NCBI GenBank assembly: GCA_024275575.1
Contig: JAJRYV010000117.1
Coordinates: 1 to 64,000 of the forward strand
Direction: 5' to 3'
Source: a bacterium
GTDB taxonomy: Bacteria > Zhuqueibacterota > Zhuqueibacteria > Zhuqueibacterales > Geothermadaptataceae
Length of the DNA: 64,000 nucleotides
Shown here piece by piece: positions 13,999 to 22,559 of this stretch. The translations under genes and the position numbers were made by a program. The notes beneath the pieces were generated by a model. That model had not been told where the DNA came from. It did no database searches and saw only the letters and a list, made by a program, of their open reading frames with translations. How positions within the stretch are numbered: position 1 is the stretch's first letter; the number at the start of each line of letters is the position of its first letter.

Positions 13999-14135
13999 CG
14001 CTTCTCCTGTTTAAATGCCAGGTTGCCCCTGCAACCTGTAACCTGCAGATATACGTTTCTCTCAGAAGCGATTCCCGAATGAAGTTTTTAAGATTTTGAT
14101 TTGGAATTTTAAGAAAGTTTCAGGATTCGCTTCTG
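13997..14135 (-). promoter_or_regulatory. Candidate translational attenuator between leader ORF and ilvD
   Basis: On the minus-strand RNA three segments compete. Segment A, CAGAAGCGA (14127-14135), starts two bases after tandem stop codons of the leader ORF. Segment B, ATCGCTTCT (14064-14072), is complementary to A by 9 bp (14063-14071) plus 3 more after one mismatch. Segment C, AGAAGCGAT (13997-14005), repeats A and covers part of the ilvD Shine-Dalgarno and the AT of its ATG. A:B leaves ilvD accessible; B:C hides it. A ribosome at the leader stop would mask A and favour B:C. A separate hairpin, AGGTTGC/GCAACCT, lies at 14020-14037. No U-tract is seen, so control would be at translation, not termination. 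Confidence 0.6.
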
Positions 14136-14139
14136 GTTA

Positions 14140-14367
14140 TTAGCGGCTAATAATAATCACGCTAATGAGCAGAATCCCGAGAATGTGGAGCACCACAGGG
14201 CTGATAATAATGGCCACATCAATGAGCGTGGTGATATTTATTATCAGGCTGAAAATGAGGGATAATGAGAGGAGCAAAGATGCAAATGTGGTGAACGCGC
14301 GTACCTTGGCGCTGGCCGGGATGGGCCAAAGCAGTGCAGTCGCGGTTGTCACATTTGTCTGTTGCAT
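14140..14367 (-). CDS. Ile/Leu/Val-rich leader ORF of the ilv-leu operon
   Basis: The 75-codon frame ends with TAA TAA and its last 46 codons include 29 for Ile, Leu or Val, with runs such as VAIII, LHILGILL and SVIII. The composition resembles the ilvGMEDA-type leader peptide, and the ORF lies 141 bp upstream of ilvD in the same direction. The start is uncertain: the ATG at 14367 has no Shine-Dalgarno and lies immediately after a possible -10 box, so translation may begin at an internal GTG or TTG. A small hydrophobic membrane peptide is the alternative, but the pairing segments that follow favour a regulatory leader. Confidence 0.6.
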   Translation of the reverse strand: MQQTNVTTATALLWPIPASAKVRAFTTFASLLLSLSLIFSLIINITTLIDVAIIISPVVLHILGILLISVIIISR

Positions 14368-14368
14368 A

Positions 14369-14377
14369 ATTATACCA
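14369..14377 (-). promoter_or_regulatory. Extended -10 promoter element TGGTATAAT
   Basis: Read on the minus strand, the sequence is a TGn extension followed by a consensus TATAAT. No clear -35 box is at the right distance, as is common for extended -10 promoters. It would start transcription a few bases inside the longest leader frame, so the true leader start would be downstream of 14367. Confidence 0.45.
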
Positions 14378-14587
14378 TTTTTGATAAAAATATTAGGGGC
14401 TAAATATAATCATGTGCTGCAAAAATGCAAGAGATTTATTTTTATCAGCGAAAAAAATAATCTATTGCAGATAATTGGATATTTGAATCATATTGTTTTT
14501 GTTGGGATTAGATGGTTTTTTATTTCCTGGGTTTTTTATGGATATTATTGATGACTTTCAGGAATAAATTCTTTTCCGTCAAAATTA

Positions 14588-15925
14588 TTAATTATTATGA
14601 ACGATGAATTTATTTTTATGCAAGATAGCTTTCTGCATCTGAACCGGCTTTGTTAGATAGATATTCGCCAGTCCGCGACCGATTATAAATGCCCAGGCCG
14701 CCGCGGTAACGCCGGTAAAATCAAAGAATTGAACCAGCATGAAAATGATCGTGGCAATACTGCCTACTTCAATTGCAGTTGCCAGGGTGATTGGTTGTGT
14801 ATGCTGGCCGGCCACGAGTACGGAGCGTTGCCATGAAAGAAACACGGATAATGCCGGCAGTAAAATCAATATTTGTGTCGGAATGCGGGCAAATTCAGCC
14901 AGTTGGCTTGACAGGCCGGAGATGGTTACATACCAGATGGTGAAAAACGGTGGAATAGCGATGAGCAGCAAACCCGCTGAGGCGGCGATTCCCAGCCATA
15001 TTGCGAAACTGGAAACAGGCTTAATATTTTCATGGCCTGATGTCAGAAAGGTGATACCGGCTTCCTGAAATGATAATCCAAAAGCCCGAAAGACAAAAAC
15101 GATGGCATTGACCACCGGCAAAATCGCCAGCGACTCCAGCGCATGCCGGCCTTGCCCGATAAAAAAAATCACCAGCGGGTGAATGCCGAGCCCGAGCAAC
15201 GAGGTCATTGCAAGTGGATAATAAAACCGGTAAATTCCCCGGTAAGTCAAGTCTTTTGAACCGCTTCGGCGGCTGATTTTACGAATGTTTTTTGTCGCCT
15301 TGTTTGCCATAAATCTCGCCGCAACCGCTTCGAGAATGACGCCGGCACTCAAAGCGGCGGCGCCGATACAGGCGCCGGGAATATTAGACCAGGTATATAA
15401 AATCCCGGCGGTGAAAGTCATGCTGAACACACGTATTGCCGTGCCGTAGGCGACTTTTCTCGTCTCGTGGCTGCGAATCAAAATACCCTGGAAAAAACGA
15501 CGGTAGCCGATTGCGCCGGGCCAGGGCAACAAAATCAGCATGGTTAAGTATGTCAGCCTCGCCACTTCTTTTTCCAGACCGATCAGGTCAATGACGATAA
15601 AATTAAAAACCGGAGGGATGAGCACTACGAGCATGATGGCGGTGATAGCGATATTCAGGGCATAGGTGAAATTACGCAATTTCCGGAAGGATAAATCATC
15701 TTCGATCAGCGCGGTTGAGGCCGTCATGATCATGATCACCGGCGCTTCGATGATGAGTGCAAAAGAATAAGCGACACCGTAGGCGGCAAGGTTAAAAGTC
15801 GATGCAGCCAGGCGTGCGATGACGGCGGTCAGAAACGGCCCTTCGAAAGCCATCATTAACCATGTGAGCAGCAGGGGAAACCAGAATTTAAAGATGGTTT
15901 TGAGCGGTGTATTTTGCGGGTTCAT
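14588..15925 (-). CDS. Polytopic membrane protein of the MATE/ankylosis-like (MOP) type
   Basis: The 445-residue protein has about twelve hydrophobic segments and little else. The pattern of two six-helix halves, with the N-terminal GPFLTAVIARLAASTFNLAAYG segment and IMTASTALIEDD loop, resembles MOP-superfamily exporters related to MATE proteins or ANK-type transporters. The substrate cannot be inferred. It lies 71 bp downstream of the small membrane gene at 15997-16371 and could be the tail of the asd-lysC transcription unit; it ends 220 bp before the ilv leader on the same strand. Confidence 0.6.
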   Translation of the reverse strand: MNPQNTPLKTIFKFWFPLLLTWLMMAFEGPFLTAVIARLAASTFNLAAYGVAYSFALIIEAPVIMIMTASTALIEDDLSFRKLRNFTYALNIAITAIMLVVLIPPVFNFIVIDLIGLEKEVARLTYLTMLILLPWPGAIGYRRFFQGILIRSHETRKVAYGTAIRVFSMTFTAGILYTWSNIPGACIGAAALSAGVILEAVAARFMANKATKNIRKISRRSGSKDLTYRGIYRFYYPLAMTSLLGLGIHPLVIFFIGQGRHALESLAILPVVNAIVFVFRAFGLSFQEAGITFLTSGHENIKPVSSFAIWLGIAASAGLLLIAIPPFFTIWYVTISGLSSQLAEFARIPTQILILLPALSVFLSWQRSVLVAGQHTQPITLATAIEVGSIATIIFMLVQFFDFTGVTAAAWAFIIGRGLANIYLTKPVQMQKAILHKNKFIVHNN

Positions 15926-15996
15926 TTATTTACAGGCTTAAAAACGAAAACGAAAAATAAATTGGGGGAAAATAAGTGAAACGCCGCAATAATCCA

Positions 15997-16371
15997 TCAG
16001 AAAAGTTTAAACGAGAATAAATAAAATCCGGTCCCGATGAGTGAAATGAGTCCCAACACAATCAGATTCAGACGGTATTCATCGTTGCGACGGCGGTGCC
16101 GTTTTTTATTGATCCACAGGCCGACTATGCTTAAAACAATGCACAGCAGGAACCACATCAGGGAGAGGAAAGCATAGGTCTGATTCCAGTGATAGCGCAT
16201 TTGGATATGAAAAAGGCGGTCGAAAAATGTTTCGAAATCAGGTTTGGCCTCATCGAAAAGAATCAGCGAGATGGAAAAATTTATCCAGCCTGCGATAGCG
16301 AGCCAGCGGATCGATTTTATCAGCTTATCCGGCCCGCGCCGGCGGTCTTTTATTCTTTCTCCGGGTCGCAT
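15997..16371 (-). CDS. Small membrane protein, unknown function
   Basis: The 124-residue protein starts with a basic stretch (MRPGERIKDRRRGPDK) and has three hydrophobic helices at about 23-42, 65-88 and 100-122, separated by a basic loop (NKKRHRRRNDEYR). I recognise no family. It begins 22 bp after the end of lysC on the same strand and may be co-transcribed with asd-lysC by proximity only. Confidence 0.6.
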   Translation of the reverse strand: MRPGERIKDRRRGPDKLIKSIRWLAIAGWINFSISLILFDEAKPDFETFFDRLFHIQMRYHWNQTYAFLSLMWFLLCIVLSIVGLWINKKRHRRRNDEYRLNLIVLGLISLIGTGFYLFSFKLF

Positions 16372-16393
16372 CCTGCTTTTCCTTTTTCATGAT

Positions 16394-17851
16394 TCACACC
16401 GCGCTGCTATGACTATATTTGTCGTGCAACAGCAAATCGCTTGTACGGCTTGCGGACTGGCCGTTCTGCAGGTTTCCCGTGGATAAAATATCCTCATGAA
16501 TCGCAGAGACGGCACGGTGACATTCCGCTGCATCGACGATAAAATAGGCGGCAGCAGATGAGGCGCCGATAGAAACCAGTTTTAAATTGATATCGCGAAT
16601 GATGAAAGCACGCAAAACCTGGTTTGTCAGCTCCGGGCGGTCTGTAATGCCCTCGCCGACGAGTGCTATAAGTGAAATATCGTCCAGAATTGTGATCTGC
16701 TGGATGCTCGGCAGCCGCAAAGATGCGACGATTTCTTTACTTTTGTGGGCATTGCTATTGGAAACGAGCATATTAATGGAGGTCTGCGAGGTGTAAATCG
16801 ATTTAATATTCAACTCGTTTTTTGCAAATTTCCGGCTGATTTTATTGATGATACCGGGATTGATACCGATGCCGGGACCGGTCAATTTCAGCAATGCAAC
16901 ATCATTGGTATAGGTTACACTTTTGGCAAAACCGTTTGTTGAATTCTCGTTCGAATGAATGATGGATGGGGTACTGCTGGACCCATCGAAATCGTTGATG
17001 CTGAAAATCCGCACAGGGATATTGTGATCGACGAGCGGTTCAACAGTCATCGGATGCAGAATTTTGGCGCCGAAATAGGAGAGTTCGGCTGCCTCGCGAT
17101 AGGTCAGATTTTTGAGAAAGTGTGGTTTTTCGACGATTTTCGGATCAGCGCTTAAAAAGCCACTGACATCCTTCCACGTATCCAGGGAGGGGGCGCCGAT
17201 GCATCGAGCGATGGCTGCTGCGGTATAATCACTGCCGCCGCGTCCGAGCAAAGTGACGCGGCCGTCATCGCGGGAAACGCCGTAGAAACCGGGCACGATA
17301 TTCGTTAGCGTATTGTCGAGCCGTTTTTTAACCAGCGGCTGGGCTTGCTCAAAATCGATACGGGCATTGCCGAAACGGCCATCGGTGATCAAACCCATCT
17401 CTTCCGGTCTGACTTTCTCACAGGGGATACCGGCTGAAGTCAGAATGGACTCGAGCAACAGCGCCGAAAGTCTTTCGCCAAAACTGAGCACGAGGTCTTC
17501 GGTGAAATTCGGCGCTTCACCGAGATAATGCACACCTTTGAGATATTTCGCCAGCGTATCGACACGAATATTGATTTTGTTGACCGCTTTACGGCGTTCG
17601 CTTGGCAAATTGATGTATTGATGGATGATATCGTGTTTCAGGTTCATTAAATACTGGCTTAGTTCTGCAATAACAGATTGGTCATCGGCGGCTTTGGCGA
17701 TGGTATCCTGCAACCGGTCAGTCAGGCCGTACCACGCAGAGACGACAACCACCAATGGTTCGTTGTATGACCGGATGACGTCGATGATTTTTCCGAGGTC
17801 TTCTTTGCTTTTGAGATTTGATCCGCCAATTTTAATCACTCTTTTACTCAT
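16394..17851 (-). CDS. lysC: Aspartate kinase
   Basis: LysC phosphorylates aspartate, the first step toward lysine, methionine and threonine. The N-terminal kinase domain begins MSKRVIKIGGSNLKS and carries SFGERLSALLL, the GRGGSDYTAAAIARCIGA motif and DVSGFLSADPKIV. Two ACT domains follow (about 320-465), with TGPGIGINPGII and EGITDRPELTNQVL, so allosteric feedback by a pathway amino acid is expected. There is no homoserine dehydrogenase domain. The first motif has N where KFGGSS is usual. The ATG overlaps the asd stop (ATGA), indicating coupled translation behind the asd attenuator. Confidence 0.95.
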   Translation of the reverse strand: MSKRVIKIGGSNLKSKEDLGKIIDVIRSYNEPLVVVVSAWYGLTDRLQDTIAKAADDQSVIAELSQYLMNLKHDIIHQYINLPSERRKAVNKINIRVDTLAKYLKGVHYLGEAPNFTEDLVLSFGERLSALLLESILTSAGIPCEKVRPEEMGLITDGRFGNARIDFEQAQPLVKKRLDNTLTNIVPGFYGVSRDDGRVTLLGRGGSDYTAAAIARCIGAPSLDTWKDVSGFLSADPKIVEKPHFLKNLTYREAAELSYFGAKILHPMTVEPLVDHNIPVRIFSINDFDGSSSTPSIIHSNENSTNGFAKSVTYTNDVALLKLTGPGIGINPGIINKISRKFAKNELNIKSIYTSQTSINMLVSNSNAHKSKEIVASLRLPSIQQITILDDISLIALVGEGITDRPELTNQVLRAFIIRDINLKLVSIGASSAAAYFIVDAAECHRAVSAIHEDILSTGNLQNGQSASRTSDLLLHDKYSHSSAV

Positions 17852-18879
17852 GATTCTTGCCTCTGGTAATTTTGGATGAAAACCTCTGCGTTAATTATCG
17901 AGCCACCTGCCGCGCCACGCACGATATTGTTTGCCAGCAAAAAGAAACCGGTGAGCTTGTGCTGCTTTCGCAGGCGCCCGGTAAAAACCTGCATGCCCGG
18001 TGGCCGGCCTTCGAAGGCTTGTTTCGGCTGGGGGAATTTCTCTTCAGTCTGGTAGAGGACAGGCCGCTGCGGCGCCGTCGGCAGCGGCGGTTGATCATTG
18101 CCGAATTTCGCCCAGGCATTTAAAATATCTTCATTACTCACATCGTGTTCAAATTCGATCCATACCGATTCAAGATGACCGAATTTTACCGGGATACGCA
18201 CACATGCGGGGAAAATATCAGCCTCAATGCCGAGAATTTTCCGGCATTCGCGAATGATCTTTTCTTCTTCTCCATTGATGAAGGGGATAGCATTTCCCAT
18301 GATGTCGAGCGCGGACAGCCCCGGATATCCGGCGCCAGATATCGCCTGATAGGTCGAAACAAAGAGTTTTTGAATAGAAAATTGCCGCAACGGCGCCAGG
18401 GCGACGGCCAGCCCGGCAGTGGTGCAATTGGAATTGGTGACGATAAAACCTCGTTGCGGAAATCCCTGTGTTTCGATCAATCGCAGCGCTTCAGGGTTGA
18501 CTTCCGGGATGAGAATAGGCACGTTTTCTTCATGGCGAAAGGCGCCTGCATTGGAAAAAACCCAAAACCCTGCATCGCGTAATTCCGCTTCGGCCTCGCG
18601 GGCGATATCCGCGGGCAATGCACTGAAAATAATCTGTACGCCGGATTCTTTGAGCTGGTCTACTGCATATTTGTTAAAATTAAGCGCCGCCACTTCCGTG
18701 GGCATCGGCTGTGGCAATAGCCACGCTGTCGACGCAGCAACATTCTGCCCGCCGCGTTTATCTGAAGCGATGACACGGGTCAATTCAAACCAGGGATGGT
18801 TGGCGAGCATAGAGAGAAACACCTGGCCAACCATGCCGGTGGCGCCCAGTACTGCACATTTGATTTTATTTTCCATCAT
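17848..18879 (-). CDS. asd: Aspartate-semialdehyde dehydrogenase
   Basis: Asd reduces aspartyl phosphate to aspartate semialdehyde, the branch point for lysine, threonine and methionine. The N-terminal NADP motif AVLGATGMVGQVFL, the catalytic Cys in NSNCTTAGLA and the C-terminal His-bearing segment are present; this is the archaeal/fungal-like 340-residue type (343 aa). The ATG at 18879 is chosen because AAGGA lies about 5 nt upstream. A longer frame from 19002 reads through the terminator and is wrong. It is the first gene of asd-lysC and sits directly behind a Thr/Met/Lys leader attenuator. Confidence 0.95.
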   Translation of the reverse strand: MMENKIKCAVLGATGMVGQVFLSMLANHPWFELTRVIASDKRGGQNVAASTAWLLPQPMPTEVAALNFNKYAVDQLKESGVQIIFSALPADIAREAEAELRDAGFWVFSNAGAFRHEENVPILIPEVNPEALRLIETQGFPQRGFIVTNSNCTTAGLAVALAPLRQFSIQKLFVSTYQAISGAGYPGLSALDIMGNAIPFINGEEEKIIRECRKILGIEADIFPACVRIPVKFGHLESVWIEFEHDVSNEDILNAWAKFGNDQPPLPTAPQRPVLYQTEEKFPQPKQAFEGRPPGMQVFTGRLRKQHKLTGFFLLANNIVRGAAGGSIINAEVFIQNYQRQES

Positions 18880-18907
18880 CGATTTCCTTGTATTTTGATT
18901 TTTATGC

Positions 18908-18940
18908 AAAAAAAAAAGCCTTTCCAAAGGGAAAGGCTTT
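18908..18940 (-). terminator. Intrinsic terminator (attenuator) upstream of asd
   Basis: On the minus strand the RNA forms an 11-bp stem AAAGCCTTTCC/GGAAAGGCTTT with loop CTTT, followed by a run of U (A tract 18908-18914 on the plus strand). It lies between the leader ORF and asd in the direction of transcription, so it can only act as a conditional terminator of the asd-lysC message. Confidence 0.9.
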
Positions 18941-18991
18941 AAATAGTCTGTTTCAAAAACCGTCATCGTATAGACTATAATCCACCTTTCC
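18930..18991 (-). promoter_or_regulatory. Antiterminator arms overlapping the leader end
   Basis: GGAAAGG within leader codons 25-27 (18985-18991) is complementary to CCTTTCC, the 5' arm of the terminator (18930-18936). Nested inside, ATAGTCT (18972-18978, at the leader stop codon) pairs with AGACTAT (18943-18949). Together they form a long hairpin incompatible with the terminator. A ribosome at the leader stop would cover both upstream arms and allow termination; one stalled on earlier Thr, Met or Lys codons would leave them free and allow readthrough. Confidence 0.75.
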
Positions 18992-19064
18992 AAAAACCGC
19001 ATGTACAGGTCATGGTCTTCATCATGGTCATTTTCATGGTTTTTGTGGTGGATTTAATTTTCAT
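18975..19064 (-). CDS. Thr/Met/Lys-rich leader peptide of asd-lysC
   Basis: The 29-codon ORF starts MKIKSTTKTMKMTMM and then includes TMTCTCGFW. It has 7 Thr, 6 Met (with the start) and 6 Lys, the end products of the aspartate pathway that asd and lysC feed, all but one within the first 21 codons. It ends with TAG at 18975-18977, 35 bases before the terminator stem. No strong ribosome-binding site is visible (GAAGAG lies about 10 nt upstream). The composition, position and competing hairpins together make this a classical attenuation leader. Metal binding through its two Cys is a less likely alternative role. Confidence 0.85.
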   Translation of the reverse strand: MKIKSTTKTMKMTMMKTMTCTCGFWKGGL

Positions 19065-19317
19065 TTTGTCGAATACTCTTCAGTTTTAAATTTTTATAAG
19101 GCCTTAAGATAAATGAAATTGTTCAAATTCCAAGAGGAATTTTAATTTATACAAAAAAATGTAAATTTATTAGTTCGTTAATTTCGTTAAAAAATATTCT
19201 GCCAGTTATCGTCGTTTTGTTCACAATTTTCAATGATTTAAAATGTAACAATTGCAAATCGCTGCCGTAGGAGTGACTGTTTAAATTTCATTATATGCAT
19301 GTTGAAGGGAGTATTTA

Positions 19318-21066
19318 ATGAAACGCATTTTTTCACTTGCTATTCCATCGTTATTAATTATACCCGCACTGGTTTTTGCCGGGAAAAAAGAACTCGCAAA
19401 AATCGTTCGGATTTATCCACAGGAAGTTCAGGTACAAGGCTTTGAATTATCCCGTGACGGCCAGGTTAGGATCAGGGCTGCCGGCGCTATGCAGAAATCA
19501 CGTTCGAACCAAGTTGTTTTTGGTTACGGCTGGATCATCAACGCCAGAACACGCGAACTGGTCTGGGAGATGAAATCTGAACGTATCGGCTCCAGGCATA
19601 TCAAAGTGCGTGAACAACACGATGAGATATCGCTGGGAAAAGGGGCCTATGAAGTCTATTATTCATCATTCCCGTATTACCGTTCGCATAAAAACTGGCG
19701 CTACGACGATGATTATTCCCTCGGGCGATTCATCGTCGGAATTCTGAAGGGCTTCGATTTTGACGATTGGGATGAAAATGATTTCGATCGTGTCTGCGAA
19801 AAATTTCACATTATCGTCGTCGGAGAGGGCAAGCCGCTTTCAAAAGCAGATCTTGAAAAAATCGCAAGGGAAAACTCGCGGGATGATATCGTGCATCTTT
19901 TCGCAGATCGCGATGATGAATATCTTGAGCAGGGATTTGAACTCATACGGGATATGGAGGTGGAAATCCGGGGCACAGGTGAGATTCGCGAAGACGGACG
20001 CTTCGACTACGGCTGGATCATCGATGCGGATTCGAGAAAAAAAATCTGGCAGATGGATTTCCGCGGCACAGAACCCGCCGGCGGTTCTTTAAAAAATCGA
20101 TTCGTCAAAGAAACCATTCTTCTCGATAAAGGGCGCTACGCCGCAATTTATGTAACCGATGATTCCCACTCCGCTGAAGCATGGAATGCGCCGCCACCCT
20201 ACGATCCCACAGCCTGGGGGCTGACGATTCGTGCAACCCGGCAGGCAGATAAAAAATATGTGAAAAATTTTGATTACGCAAAAGAAGCAGCACAGCAAAC
20301 TGTCGTTGCTTTGACAAAGGTTCGTGATGACGAATACCTCGAACAGGCCTTCCGCCTGGAAAAATCGGGGGAATTCCGCATTTATGCCATCGGCGAGGGC
20401 CGGGCCGGCGACATGTTTGATTATGGCTGGATCATCGATGCGAAAAACCACCGGCGGGTCTGGGAAATGGAATATGATGAAACCGACCATGCCGGCGGTG
20501 CCCGGAAAAATCGTATCTTTGATGATGTCATCGAACTGGATGCTGGTGATTATGTCGCCTGTTACCAAACTGATGGTACGCACGCATATGGTAACTGGAA
20601 CGCAACGCGTCCATACGATAGCCGGGCCTGGGGCCTGACGATTTACATCGCTGATGAAAATTACGATAGCGGTAATATCAAAAAAATCGAAGTTGAAGAA
20701 GATCAGAATCTCATCGCAAAAATCTGGCGCGTCCGTGACCATGCGAACAAAAAAGTGGAATTTCATCTCCAGGGAAATAGCGAAATCCGGGTTTATGCTA
20801 TTGGCGAGGGCGATCGCGGCGATATGTTTGATTACGGCTGGATTGAAAAAGAAAACGGCCGGACCATCTGGGAAATGCGCTACCGCGACACCGAACACGC
20901 CGGCGGCGCATCAAAAAACCGCGTCTTCGATGATACGATTTATCTCAAAGCCGGAAATTATACGCTCTATTACGAATCCGATGGTTCTCACTCCTTTGCT
21001 GATTGGAACGATAGCCCGCCTCGAGATCGAACCCGTTGGGGGATCGCTCTTTATAAAGTTGATTGA
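19318..21066 (+). CDS. Secreted protein with four ~120-residue repeats
   Basis: A signal peptide (residues 1-20, ending VFAG) is followed by four related domains, about 35-165, 200-315, 335-450 and 465-580. The recurring core is FDYGWIIDA...W.M...AGG..KNR....I.L..G.Y...Y.TD.SH....WN...P.D..~WGL, spaced the same way in repeats 2-4; repeat 1 is more divergent. The beta-rich pattern suggests a chain of beta-sandwich modules. Repeat starts carry DDEYLEQ.F.L. I know no family name for it. It is exported, with no sorting domain or lipobox, and is transcribed alone, divergently from the asd leader. Confidence 0.8.
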   Translation: MKRIFSLAIPSLLIIPALVFAGKKELAKIVRIYPQEVQVQGFELSRDGQVRIRAAGAMQKSRSNQVVFGYGWIINARTRELVWEMKSERIGSRHIKVREQHDEISLGKGAYEVYYSSFPYYRSHKNWRYDDDYSLGRFIVGILKGFDFDDWDENDFDRVCEKFHIIVVGEGKPLSKADLEKIARENSRDDIVHLFADRDDEYLEQGFELIRDMEVEIRGTGEIREDGRFDYGWIIDADSRKKIWQMDFRGTEPAGGSLKNRFVKETILLDKGRYAAIYVTDDSHSAEAWNAPPPYDPTAWGLTIRATRQADKKYVKNFDYAKEAAQQTVVALTKVRDDEYLEQAFRLEKSGEFRIYAIGEGRAGDMFDYGWIIDAKNHRRVWEMEYDETDHAGGARKNRIFDDVIELDAGDYVACYQTDGTHAYGNWNATRPYDSRAWGLTIYIADENYDSGNIKKIEVEEDQNLIAKIWRVRDHANKKVEFHLQGNSEIRVYAIGEGDRGDMFDYGWIEKENGRTIWEMRYRDTEHAGGASKNRVFDDTIYLKAGNYTLYYESDGSHSFADWNDSPPRDRTRWGIALYKVD

Positions 21067-21076
21067 TGCAATTATG

Positions 21077-21104
21077 AAACGGTTCCGGTCGACCGGTTTT
21101 TTTT
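21077..21104 (+). terminator. Intrinsic terminator after the repeat protein
   Basis: AAACGGT (21077-21083) pairs with ACCgGTTT (21092-21099) with one bulged G and loop TCCGGTCG, followed by a run of T. It lies 11 bp after the stop codon at 21066. Confidence 0.65.
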
Positions 21105-21398
21105 GTGCTCTGAATGAATTGTTCCTTCCCGGCCAATTTCAAAAATGTCAGCGCGACTGTCCGCTGCTGTGTCAACCGGTTCGTTTTGTTTCCTGTCCCG
21201 ATGATCTCCATCACCGGGAAAACCCTGCCTGAAAGCTTTTGAAAATTGTGAAATCCTGTGTCATCTTTTCTGGCATTATATTTGTGTCGACGTGATCAAT
21301 ATTTACGGGAATGCGCTAAATGACTTCTCCCTTTTTCCTGCAAAAGTTATTAGAACGGATTCGTAGACTCGGCTCATCTCATCTGAGGAATTTCACCT
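21105..21398. other. Intergenic region before the kinase-like gene
   Basis: No gene is evident here on either strand. The region presumably holds the promoter of the gene at 21399; GAGG at 21385-21388 is a plausible ribosome-binding site for its GTG start. Confidence 0.4.
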
Positions 21399-22559
21399 GT
21401 GCGTCATACTTCATCAGTTATTAATGTTGATCAAAAAGTCAAATCGATTAAACATGAATTAATCAATGTTGCCATTGCCGGAAAGCAAAATAAAAACAGG
21501 CAGGGTCGGGTTCAACCGGCGCAGTTTAAAATTTTTGACCATTTGCAAGAGGGGATAGCGGTTCTCGATGAAAAATTTCGCATTCGCTACTGGAATGAGG
21601 CATTGGCTGAGCTGGTTGCCGTCCCGAGTTTTGCTGAATTCGGAGACGATCTCTTTGCTGTGCTGCCGCCGGCTTTTGAAAATTTTCTGTTGCCCGGATT
21701 GCAGGAGGCGTTCTCGCTGGGGGAACCGCAAAATAATATCTGCACTCTCGGCGCTTCATTTGCTGAAAGAAGAGCATTCCGCTATCGCATCATTCCGCAA
21801 AACTGCGGCAAAGCGACAAAACGTCTCATTTTGACTTTGACGGAAATTACCGAAAGCTACCGTCTTAACCGGGAAAAAGACCAGCGGGAATATCTCGAAA
21901 ACTGGGGGATTTTAAGCGTCGGCGTCACGCAGGAACTGACGCAGCCGCTCGATGAAATTTATCAATTGAGCCGACAGCTGCAAGGCCATAAAAAATTATG
22001 CGGTCAGCAGCGATTACGAAATCAGCTCAAACAAATTGAGAAAAAGGTCTATCAGATATCCTATCTCGTACACAACCTCGTCGGTTTATCACACAATACG
22101 GTGCCTCATTTCTCCCGCATCAGCATGCAATTGCTCGTTGATGAATTGCAGCAGGCATGGTATGCCTGTGATGATGGCCGCAGACAATTCATCTTCGGGG
22201 AAGTGAACGATATGCCAGCCATTCTCGGAAATCGTGTTTTGCTGAGCAGTGTGTTGCAAAATCTTATGCGCATCGTCAGCCGCCTGGCGGGACGGGAGGG
22301 CCGGCCACAGATGTGTTTTGCGGCAATCAGCAACGAACGCCAGGTACGGATTTCGATTTTTAACGGTAAACAGAGCCTTGCAGACGCTGAGATTTCACAA
22401 CTTCTGGATCTGTTTTATAACCGTTCCAAAATCAGTCCGGGCACCGGTTTGGCACTGTTCATTTCCAAGCGTGTCGTCGAACTGCATGGTTGTTCGCTGC
22501 AGATTCATAATGACGCAAAACAGGGTACCGTGTTTGAAATTTTTTTACAACAATTTTAA
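21399..22559 (+). CDS. PAS-domain protein with degenerate histidine-kinase module
   Basis: A PAS-like domain (about 45-155, with IRYWNEALAELV) is followed by a dimerisation helix pair and a GHKL-type ATPase domain (about 250-386). The usual H-box HExxxPL is QELTQPL here (about residue 182), so the phosphoacceptor His is replaced by Gln. The N-box retains LQNL but lacks the second Asn, and the G1 DxGxG is replaced by FNGKQ; only the G2 motif GTGLALFISK is well kept. It may be a pseudokinase or sensory scaffold. No signal peptide or membrane segment is seen, and no response regulator is adjacent. The GTG start is the only good candidate. Confidence 0.8.
   Translation: MRHTSSVINVDQKVKSIKHELINVAIAGKQNKNRQGRVQPAQFKIFDHLQEGIAVLDEKFRIRYWNEALAELVAVPSFAEFGDDLFAVLPPAFENFLLPGLQEAFSLGEPQNNICTLGASFAERRAFRYRIIPQNCGKATKRLILTLTEITESYRLNREKDQREYLENWGILSVGVTQELTQPLDEIYQLSRQLQGHKKLCGQQRLRNQLKQIEKKVYQISYLVHNLVGLSHNTVPHFSRISMQLLVDELQQAWYACDDGRRQFIFGEVNDMPAILGNRVLLSSVLQNLMRIVSRLAGREGRPQMCFAAISNERQVRISIFNGKQSLADAEISQLLDLFYNRSKISPGTGLALFISKRVVELHGCSLQIHNDAKQGTVFEIFLQQF

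Follow-up and report, generated by a model that had tools for sequence, protein, structure and literature searches.

What controls the asd-lysC gene pair in a bacterium of candidate division KSB1, and to which amino acids does that control respond? The division is Candidatus Zhuqueibacterota, of the FCB group, in current NCBI naming, and its genomes fall in the class of the source genome studied here (G000; 4.96 Mb, 144 contigs). We analyzed one 64-kb stretch of this genome, called the window below. The original prediction was that a short reading frame rich in Thr, Met and Lys codons, placed before asd, is the leader peptide of an attenuator that senses these three end products. We examined the locus itself, its counterparts in two genomes of the same genus (G001 and G002), and the regions upstream of asd across the class.

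The asd-lysC locus and its leader

The genes, the putative promoter and the leader are arranged as follows.

14588..15925, minus strand: gene for a 445-aa protein without a family match, in a conserved gene run, with a counterpart in G001 and G002
15997..16371, minus strand: gene for a 124-aa protein without a Pfam match above cut-off, in the same conserved run, with a counterpart in G001 and G002
16394..17851, minus strand: lysC, aspartate kinase, 485 aa, overlapping asd by 4 bases
17848..18879, minus strand: asd, aspartate-semialdehyde dehydrogenase, 343 aa, ATG at 18879
18975..19064, minus strand: leader peptide ORF MKIKSTTKTMKMTMMKTMTCTCGFWKGGL, 29 codons and TAG (29 codons in the G001 counterpart, 27 in that of G002)
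19002..19049, minus strand: control codons 6-21 of the leader (7 Thr, 5 Met, 3 Lys, 1 Cys), where a modelled stall leaves the antiterminator free
19106..19111, minus strand: putative -10 hexamer TATCTT, read directly from the sequence
19128..19133, minus strand: putative -35 hexamer TTGGAA, read directly from the sequence

Curated models identify both enzymes: asd scores 353.5 bits with TIGR00978 (cut-off 301.2) and lysC 286.2 bits with TIGR00657 (cut-off 208.7). This asd is the sole match found in G000. The order leader, asd, lysC and two further genes is common to G000, G001 and G002. The 124-aa and 445-aa proteins have no Pfam match above cut-off; in each of the three genus genomes, their genes come after asd-lysC.

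On its other side, the leader is flanked by a gene (19318-21066, plus strand) that is divergent from asd; therefore, the terminator in the asd leader does not serve to end another gene, and the idea that it belongs to a neighboring gene was rejected. Only 35 nt separate this terminator from asd, so that there is no room for a promoter between them. A putative promoter TTGrAw, 16 nt, TATyTT, recognized by eye, precedes the leader in all three genomes; a strict promoter scan did not pick it up. Judging from these hexamers, the transcript would start near 19099, about 35 nt 5' of the leader ATG.

The predicted 29-codon ORF was found on the minus strand with its full complement of 7 Thr, 6 Met and 6 Lys, and its codons 8-19 are exclusively Thr, Met and Lys. 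A Shine-Dalgarno-like GAAGAG, a poor match, lies 11 nt 5' of the ATG. When the 350-nt upstream region was dinucleotide-shuffled 3000 times, no ORF of 15-50 aa contained 19 Thr, Met and Lys residues, and 7 Thr were reached in 22 shuffles. A scan of both strands of the window for an ORF combined with a terminator and an antiterminator returned two matches, the asd leader and one other with 6 Thr, Met or Lys among 49.

Predicted alternative RNA structures

The leader RNA contains the following predicted elements.

19038..19054, minus strand: segment 1, AATCCACCACAAAAACC, predicted to form 16 pairs with segment 2
18979..18998, minus strand: segment 2, GGTTTTTGGAAAGGTGGATT, codons 23-29, pairing with segment 1 or, through GGAAAGG (18991-18985), with segment 3
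18972..18978, minus strand: ATAGTCT, inner antiterminator helix, containing the stop codon and pairing with AGACTAT
18943..18949, minus strand: AGACTAT, the predicted partner of ATAGTCT
18930..18940, minus strand: segment 3, the 5' terminator arm, AAAGCCTTTCC, whose CCTTTCC also pairs with segment 2
18915..18925, minus strand: segment 4, the 3' terminator arm, GGAAAGGCTTT, from the terminator prediction
18908..18917, minus strand: tract of 10 T, overlapping the stem end

The 186-nt leader RNA has a predicted folding energy of -44.1 kcal/mol (z = -3.5; 1 of 200 shuffles as good). Its 11-bp terminator, AAAGCCTTTCC-CTTT-GGAAAGGCTTT, was located at 18940-18915 with the T tract extending to 18908, as had been described; at a predicted -15.4 kcal/mol, it is the strongest terminator-like site among those listed for 14000-22000. 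The proposed pairing of GGAAAGG, in codons 25-27, with CCTTTCC of the 5' terminator arm is borne out by prediction, and so is the nested helix of ATAGTCT (18978-18972) with AGACTAT (18949-18943). Together, the two helices form an antiterminator of -19.2 kcal/mol, against -15.4 for the terminator. The gain from 2:3 pairing is -12.5 kcal/mol, which none of 500 dinucleotide shuffles equaled.

An element absent from the original prediction is a 1:2 hairpin, in which codons 4-9 (AATCCACC and CAAAAACC) are predicted to form 16 pairs with codons 23-29 (GGTTTTTG and GGTGGATT). In the modelled folds, this hairpin completes the four-segment layout of a trp/thr-type attenuator.

Ribosome stalling was modelled with the ribosome edge assumed to lie 14 nt from the first base of the A-site codon. 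Under this assumption, the antiterminator stays free when the A site is at codon 21 or earlier and is disrupted from codon 22, and the Thr/Met/Lys run (codons 6-21) ends where the window for productive stalling closes. This agrees with the earlier proposal that a ribosome held at Thr, Met or Lys codons leaves the antiterminator free. It should be noted that the equilibrium fold favors the terminator even with a stalled ribosome (probability 0.91-1.00); hence, the order of synthesis must decide, and the antiterminator must form first. The order of RNA synthesis decides the outcome in known attenuators.

Instead of a ribosome sensor, the leader could be a ligand-binding riboswitch or a protein-bound RNA. 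Weak sub-threshold Rfam matches are all that can be adduced for this reading, which we regard as extremely unlikely, because nowhere in the 64-kb window does any Rfam family attain its gathering score, which rules out a known riboswitch, and because the signal lies in codons.

Conservation within the genus

The leaders of G001 (MNLITTSKTTMCTTIITMTCNICFWRGGL) and G002 (MIKSIIKTTKTTMMTTTCKCRFRKGGL) likewise precede asd-lysC; in G001, the listed ORF opens at an upstream TTG, and the ATG aligned with that of G000 was used instead. Conservation of leader and hairpins in relatives, on which the original prediction had been made to depend, was found in 3 of 3 genus genomes: the leader, the terminator word, the position of the stop codon and both alternative pairings are kept. 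Predicted antiterminator energies are -16.4 and -12.8 kcal/mol in G001 and G002, and those of the terminator -17.9 and -16.9. With the 14-nt edge assumed, the stall window closes after codons 21, 20 and 19 in G000, G001 and G002, respectively. In the same order, the gain from pairing the terminator arm with upstream RNA was equaled by 0, 6 and 29 of 500 dinucleotide shuffles, the leader fold by 3, 4 and 39 of 300 shuffles, and the 1:2 hairpin has 16, 16 and 8 pairs, being reduced in G002. Thus, in the G002 models neither the 2:3 gain nor the leader fold is striking.

The pairing arms themselves are kept, as expected, whereas the anticipated covariation is weak, because the differences among the three genomes are mostly one-sided. 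For example, G001 has a mismatch in GGCGAGG/CCTTTCC; in G001 and G002, as read from the alignment, TTATAG/CTATAA can pair where G000 has ATAGTCT/AGACTAT. The MAFFT alignment of the three leaders places the terminator arms of G002 off by one column, and three rows say little.

Within the peptide, Thr at codons 9, 13, 17 and 19, Lys at codon 8 and Cys at codon 20 are invariant in the three leaders, and the remaining positions of the run mostly exchange Thr, Met, Lys and Ile, often through ACG/ATG changes. Exact matches to the conserved AAAGGTGGATTATAG in G000-G002 occur in the asd leaders of G000 and G002 only; no second copy was found in these genomes, and weaker matches were about as frequent as in a reversed control.

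These data bear on another view, in which the hairpin would terminate constitutively or act as a spacer, and the ORF would be either a chance frame or a gene for a small functional protein. In its favor, the 29-aa peptide has no family match. Against this view, there is no upstream gene to end; the leader is kept in all three genomes with a fixed stop codon and competing pairings, and shuffled sequences do not yield such an ORF; and the peptide drifts except for some Thr, Lys8, Cys20 and its paired end. We consider this explanation very improbable.

Proposed mechanism

The leader is very probably a ribosome-mediated transcription attenuator of the trp/thr type that controls asd-lysC, as judged from the modelled structures, and this control probably also covers the two genes after lysC. 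Attenuation at this locus, the core of the original prediction, is well supported by the leader, terminator and competing pairings common to the three genomes, by the position of the terminator, which has a divergent gene on one side and asd on the other and leaves no space for a further promoter, and by the closing of the modelled stall window at the end of the Thr/Met/Lys run. The promoter, the translation of the leader and the regulation itself we infer from sequence.

RNA polymerase would start near 19099, and a ribosome would translate the 29-codon leader behind it. When charged tRNA-Thr (and tRNA-Met, perhaps tRNA-Lys) is plentiful, the ribosome would reach the stop codon and cover segment 2, whereupon segments 3 and 4 would form the terminator and transcription would stop before asd. 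With charged tRNA-Thr (or tRNA-Met) scarce, the ribosome would stall within codons 6-21, segment 1 being masked or left behind; the free segment 2, together with ATAGTCT/AGACTAT, would then capture segment 3 before segment 4 is made, so that the terminator is prevented and transcription continues into asd-lysC. Without translation of the leader, the 1:2 hairpin would form and the terminator would follow.

Distribution across the class

A match to asd at E 1e-50 was found in 38 of the 63 genomes of the class, and all 38 upstream regions were examined, those of G006 (cut within the gene) and G061 (158 nt) being of limited use. Leaders of attenuator design precede nine of these asd genes: the three of the genus and six (G036, G042, G045, G047, G049 and G058) of the eight asd loci in another family of the class, f8. 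The other two f8 loci, G023 and G061, have no leader of this design, nor has any of six further loci in the family and order of G000 (G003, G004, G006, G008, G013 and G014; G006 is cut within the gene). Among 80 asd loci from other genome contigs, none was found to be preceded by a leader.

The f8 leaders are unlike those of the genus in sequence and follow the same plan, mostly with AAGCCC and GGGCTT words. Between G047 and G058, which belong to one genus, GGGCTC/GAGCCC replaces GGGCTT/AAGCCC in the antiterminator, both sides being changed (compared by eye). In G042, the 2:3 gain is no better than in shuffles (134 of 500 as good).

The leaders of G000, G001, G002 and G049 came from a scan favoring Thr, Met and Lys; those of G045, G058, G042, G036 and G047 were first recognized by eye, and a scan blind to the amino acids then retrieved them along with those of G000 and G049. 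Start codons of G042 and G047 were placed by hand inside longer scan ORFs. Applied to 118 upstream regions, the blind scan returned seven of the nine leaders and one false match inside a coding sequence (L030); it needed an exact 6-base complement and missed G001 and G002, so that it under-counts.

In the asd tree, the genus clusters not with f8 but with three MAGs whose titles read Spirochaetaceae, Acidobacteriota and Aminicenantes, and leader presence needs four changes, at least three by the starred branches. On this tree, the distribution fits two origins, or a single origin with losses. Compared with its congener G042 (L013), G061 (L111 1-158) keeps promoter-like sequence and a terminator before asd and has no leader ORF between them, which may reflect either a natural deletion or an assembly fault.

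Amino acids probably sensed

Codon counts ran from codon 2 of each leader through the codon at which its stall window closes, which gives 130 codons over the nine leaders; they were compared with two expectations, one from local upstream base composition and one from each leader's own composition. Against local composition, with Poisson P values that ignore kinship among leaders, we found 38 Thr versus 8.2 expected (P 4e-14), 16 Met versus 2.5 (P 1e-8) and 29 Lys versus 10.4 (P 2e-6); these are the three most enriched residues, followed by Cys (4 versus 3.3). Against the leaders' own composition, the counts are 16 versus 1.3 for Met, 38 versus 13.7 for Thr, 4 versus 1.1 for Cys (P 0.02) and 29 versus 20.5 for Lys (P 0.045). 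The other two forward frames contain 3 and 1 Thr, 1 and 0 Met, and 16 and 11 Lys. The excess over composition and over the other frames indicates that Thr and Met are signals and that Lys may be one, most of all in f8.

In the genus leaders, there are 22 Thr versus 3.8 expected (P 1e-10) and 9 Met versus 1.1 (P 2e-6), and, against own composition, 10 Lys versus 6.8 (P 0.15). Sensing of all three products, as originally proposed, is thus upheld in part. Thr, with its four invariant codons, is on solid sequence grounds the constant signal in the genus; Met is likely the second, although it swaps with Thr through ACG/ATG changes; any Lys signal in the genus is weak (6, 1 and 5 per leader). Hence, the codons argue that the asd-lysC attenuator senses Thr, and probably Met.

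Within the attenuator reading, a credible alternative, if somewhat short of probable, is that threonine alone is sensed (with isoleucine, which is made from Thr), the Met and Lys codons being by-products of an A-rich, structure-poor sequence and of ACG/ATG drift. It would account for constant Thr at codons 9, 13, 17 and 19 beside Met counts of 6, 3 and 3 and the varying Lys, for Ile-Ile within the control run of G001, and for genus Lys that does not exceed own composition. The lysine branch of G000 also has its own lysine riboswitch (RF00168; C116:37953-38132, L160 254-433), which precedes dapE-like, dapB and dapA genes, named from reading their translations; thus, the lysine branch and the trunk each have their own sensor. 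Threonine alone does not explain why Met is enriched in both leader sets under both backgrounds (P 8e-4 or less), or why codons 8-19 of G000 are only Thr, Met and Lys.

Conversely, shortage of any one of Thr, Met and Lys, the three end products that branch from the asd-lysC trunk, might suffice to trigger readthrough, which would make the leader a genuine OR-gate; we advance this only tentatively. Consistent with it are the top ranking of the three residues over nine leaders against local composition, and a trait common to two unlike leader sets whose asd genes are not sisters in the tree. Lys enrichment fades, however, against own composition, the G001 leader has one Lys, and Met near the starts of f8 leaders may partly reflect the choice of start codon. 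That such a gate on trunk genes was reached on two separate lines of one class, the genus and f8, is likewise conceivable rather than probable. If so, asd supply would answer whichever product runs short first, and the lysine riboswitch would handle the lysine branch. With a reporter, this leader would lend itself to testing whether a single leader can respond to more than one end product of a branched pathway.

Other aspartate-family genes

Elsewhere, G000 has a second aspartate kinase and two homoserine dehydrogenases. Scans found no leaders upstream of the homoserine dehydrogenase genes or the second aspartate kinase gene in the genus, nor before the monofunctional aspartate kinase genes of G049, G045 and G047, and no convincing leader precedes the fused kinase-dehydrogenases of G049 and G045. 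The lysine riboswitch occurs in 18 of the 63 genomes of the class, G000 included; a SAM riboswitch was found in none of the nine leader-bearing genomes.

Relation to known systems

In the accessible portions of the sources, the E. coli thrL leader is described as 21 aa long and rich in Thr codons (PMC7041290), with ACC runs and a competing antiterminator and terminator (PMC4132733). The asd leader resembles this attenuator of thrABC (RF00506, Thr_leader) in its Thr-rich peptide, its competing structures and its aspartate-family target. It differs in that the target is the asd-lysC trunk and not thrABC and in having Met and Lys where thrL has Ile; a sequence relationship is not seen (RF00506 19.5 bits versus a gathering score of 55). 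With the trp- and ilv-type attenuators of Proteobacteria and Actinobacteria it has in common the four-segment layout, a leader ORF ending in segment 2 and a U-tract terminator, and it differs in amino acids and phylum. Several amino acids in one leader are known for ilv leaders. By analogy, the mechanism proposed here is that of thrL and trpL. The lysine riboswitch is alike as RNA control of the same pathway; it differs as a metabolite-binding aptamer located elsewhere in the genome, with no match in the window.

A 2010 survey, in its accessible part, names Proteobacteria and Actinobacteria as the only groups in which its authors knew leader-peptide systems to have been demonstrated, and it added Firmicutes (PMC2965389); the accessible part of an actinobacterial survey reports that operons for Thr, Lys or Met showed no conserved RNA structures (PMC1262725). 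The literature found, partial in coverage and thin in subscription papers, describes no leader-peptide attenuator upstream of asd or lysC, nor any that combines Thr, Met and Lys, which fits the earlier remark that such a system is little described. Within that partial coverage, the target, the codon mix and the phylum do not appear. The asd leader would bring a candidate phylum of the FCB group into the range of leader-peptide attenuation and predicts, at codon level, what governs the single asd gene found in G000.

A branched-chain leader candidate in the window

A 75-codon ORF at 14367-14140 (minus strand) precedes ilvD (13998-12316), and the genes that follow read as ilvD, ilvB, ilvN, ilvC, isopropylmalate/citramalate synthase, leuC and leuD. 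Over its full length it encodes 15 Ile, 13 Leu and 6 Val, and Ile, Leu, Ser and Val make up most of its final two thirds. A counterpart of 75 codons is present in G001 (L158 712-939), and in both genomes a conserved hairpin without an obvious T tract, CCAGAAGCGAATCC...GGGAATCGCTTCTG, comes after the ORF. From its composition and position, this ORF looks like an unusually long branched-chain leader.
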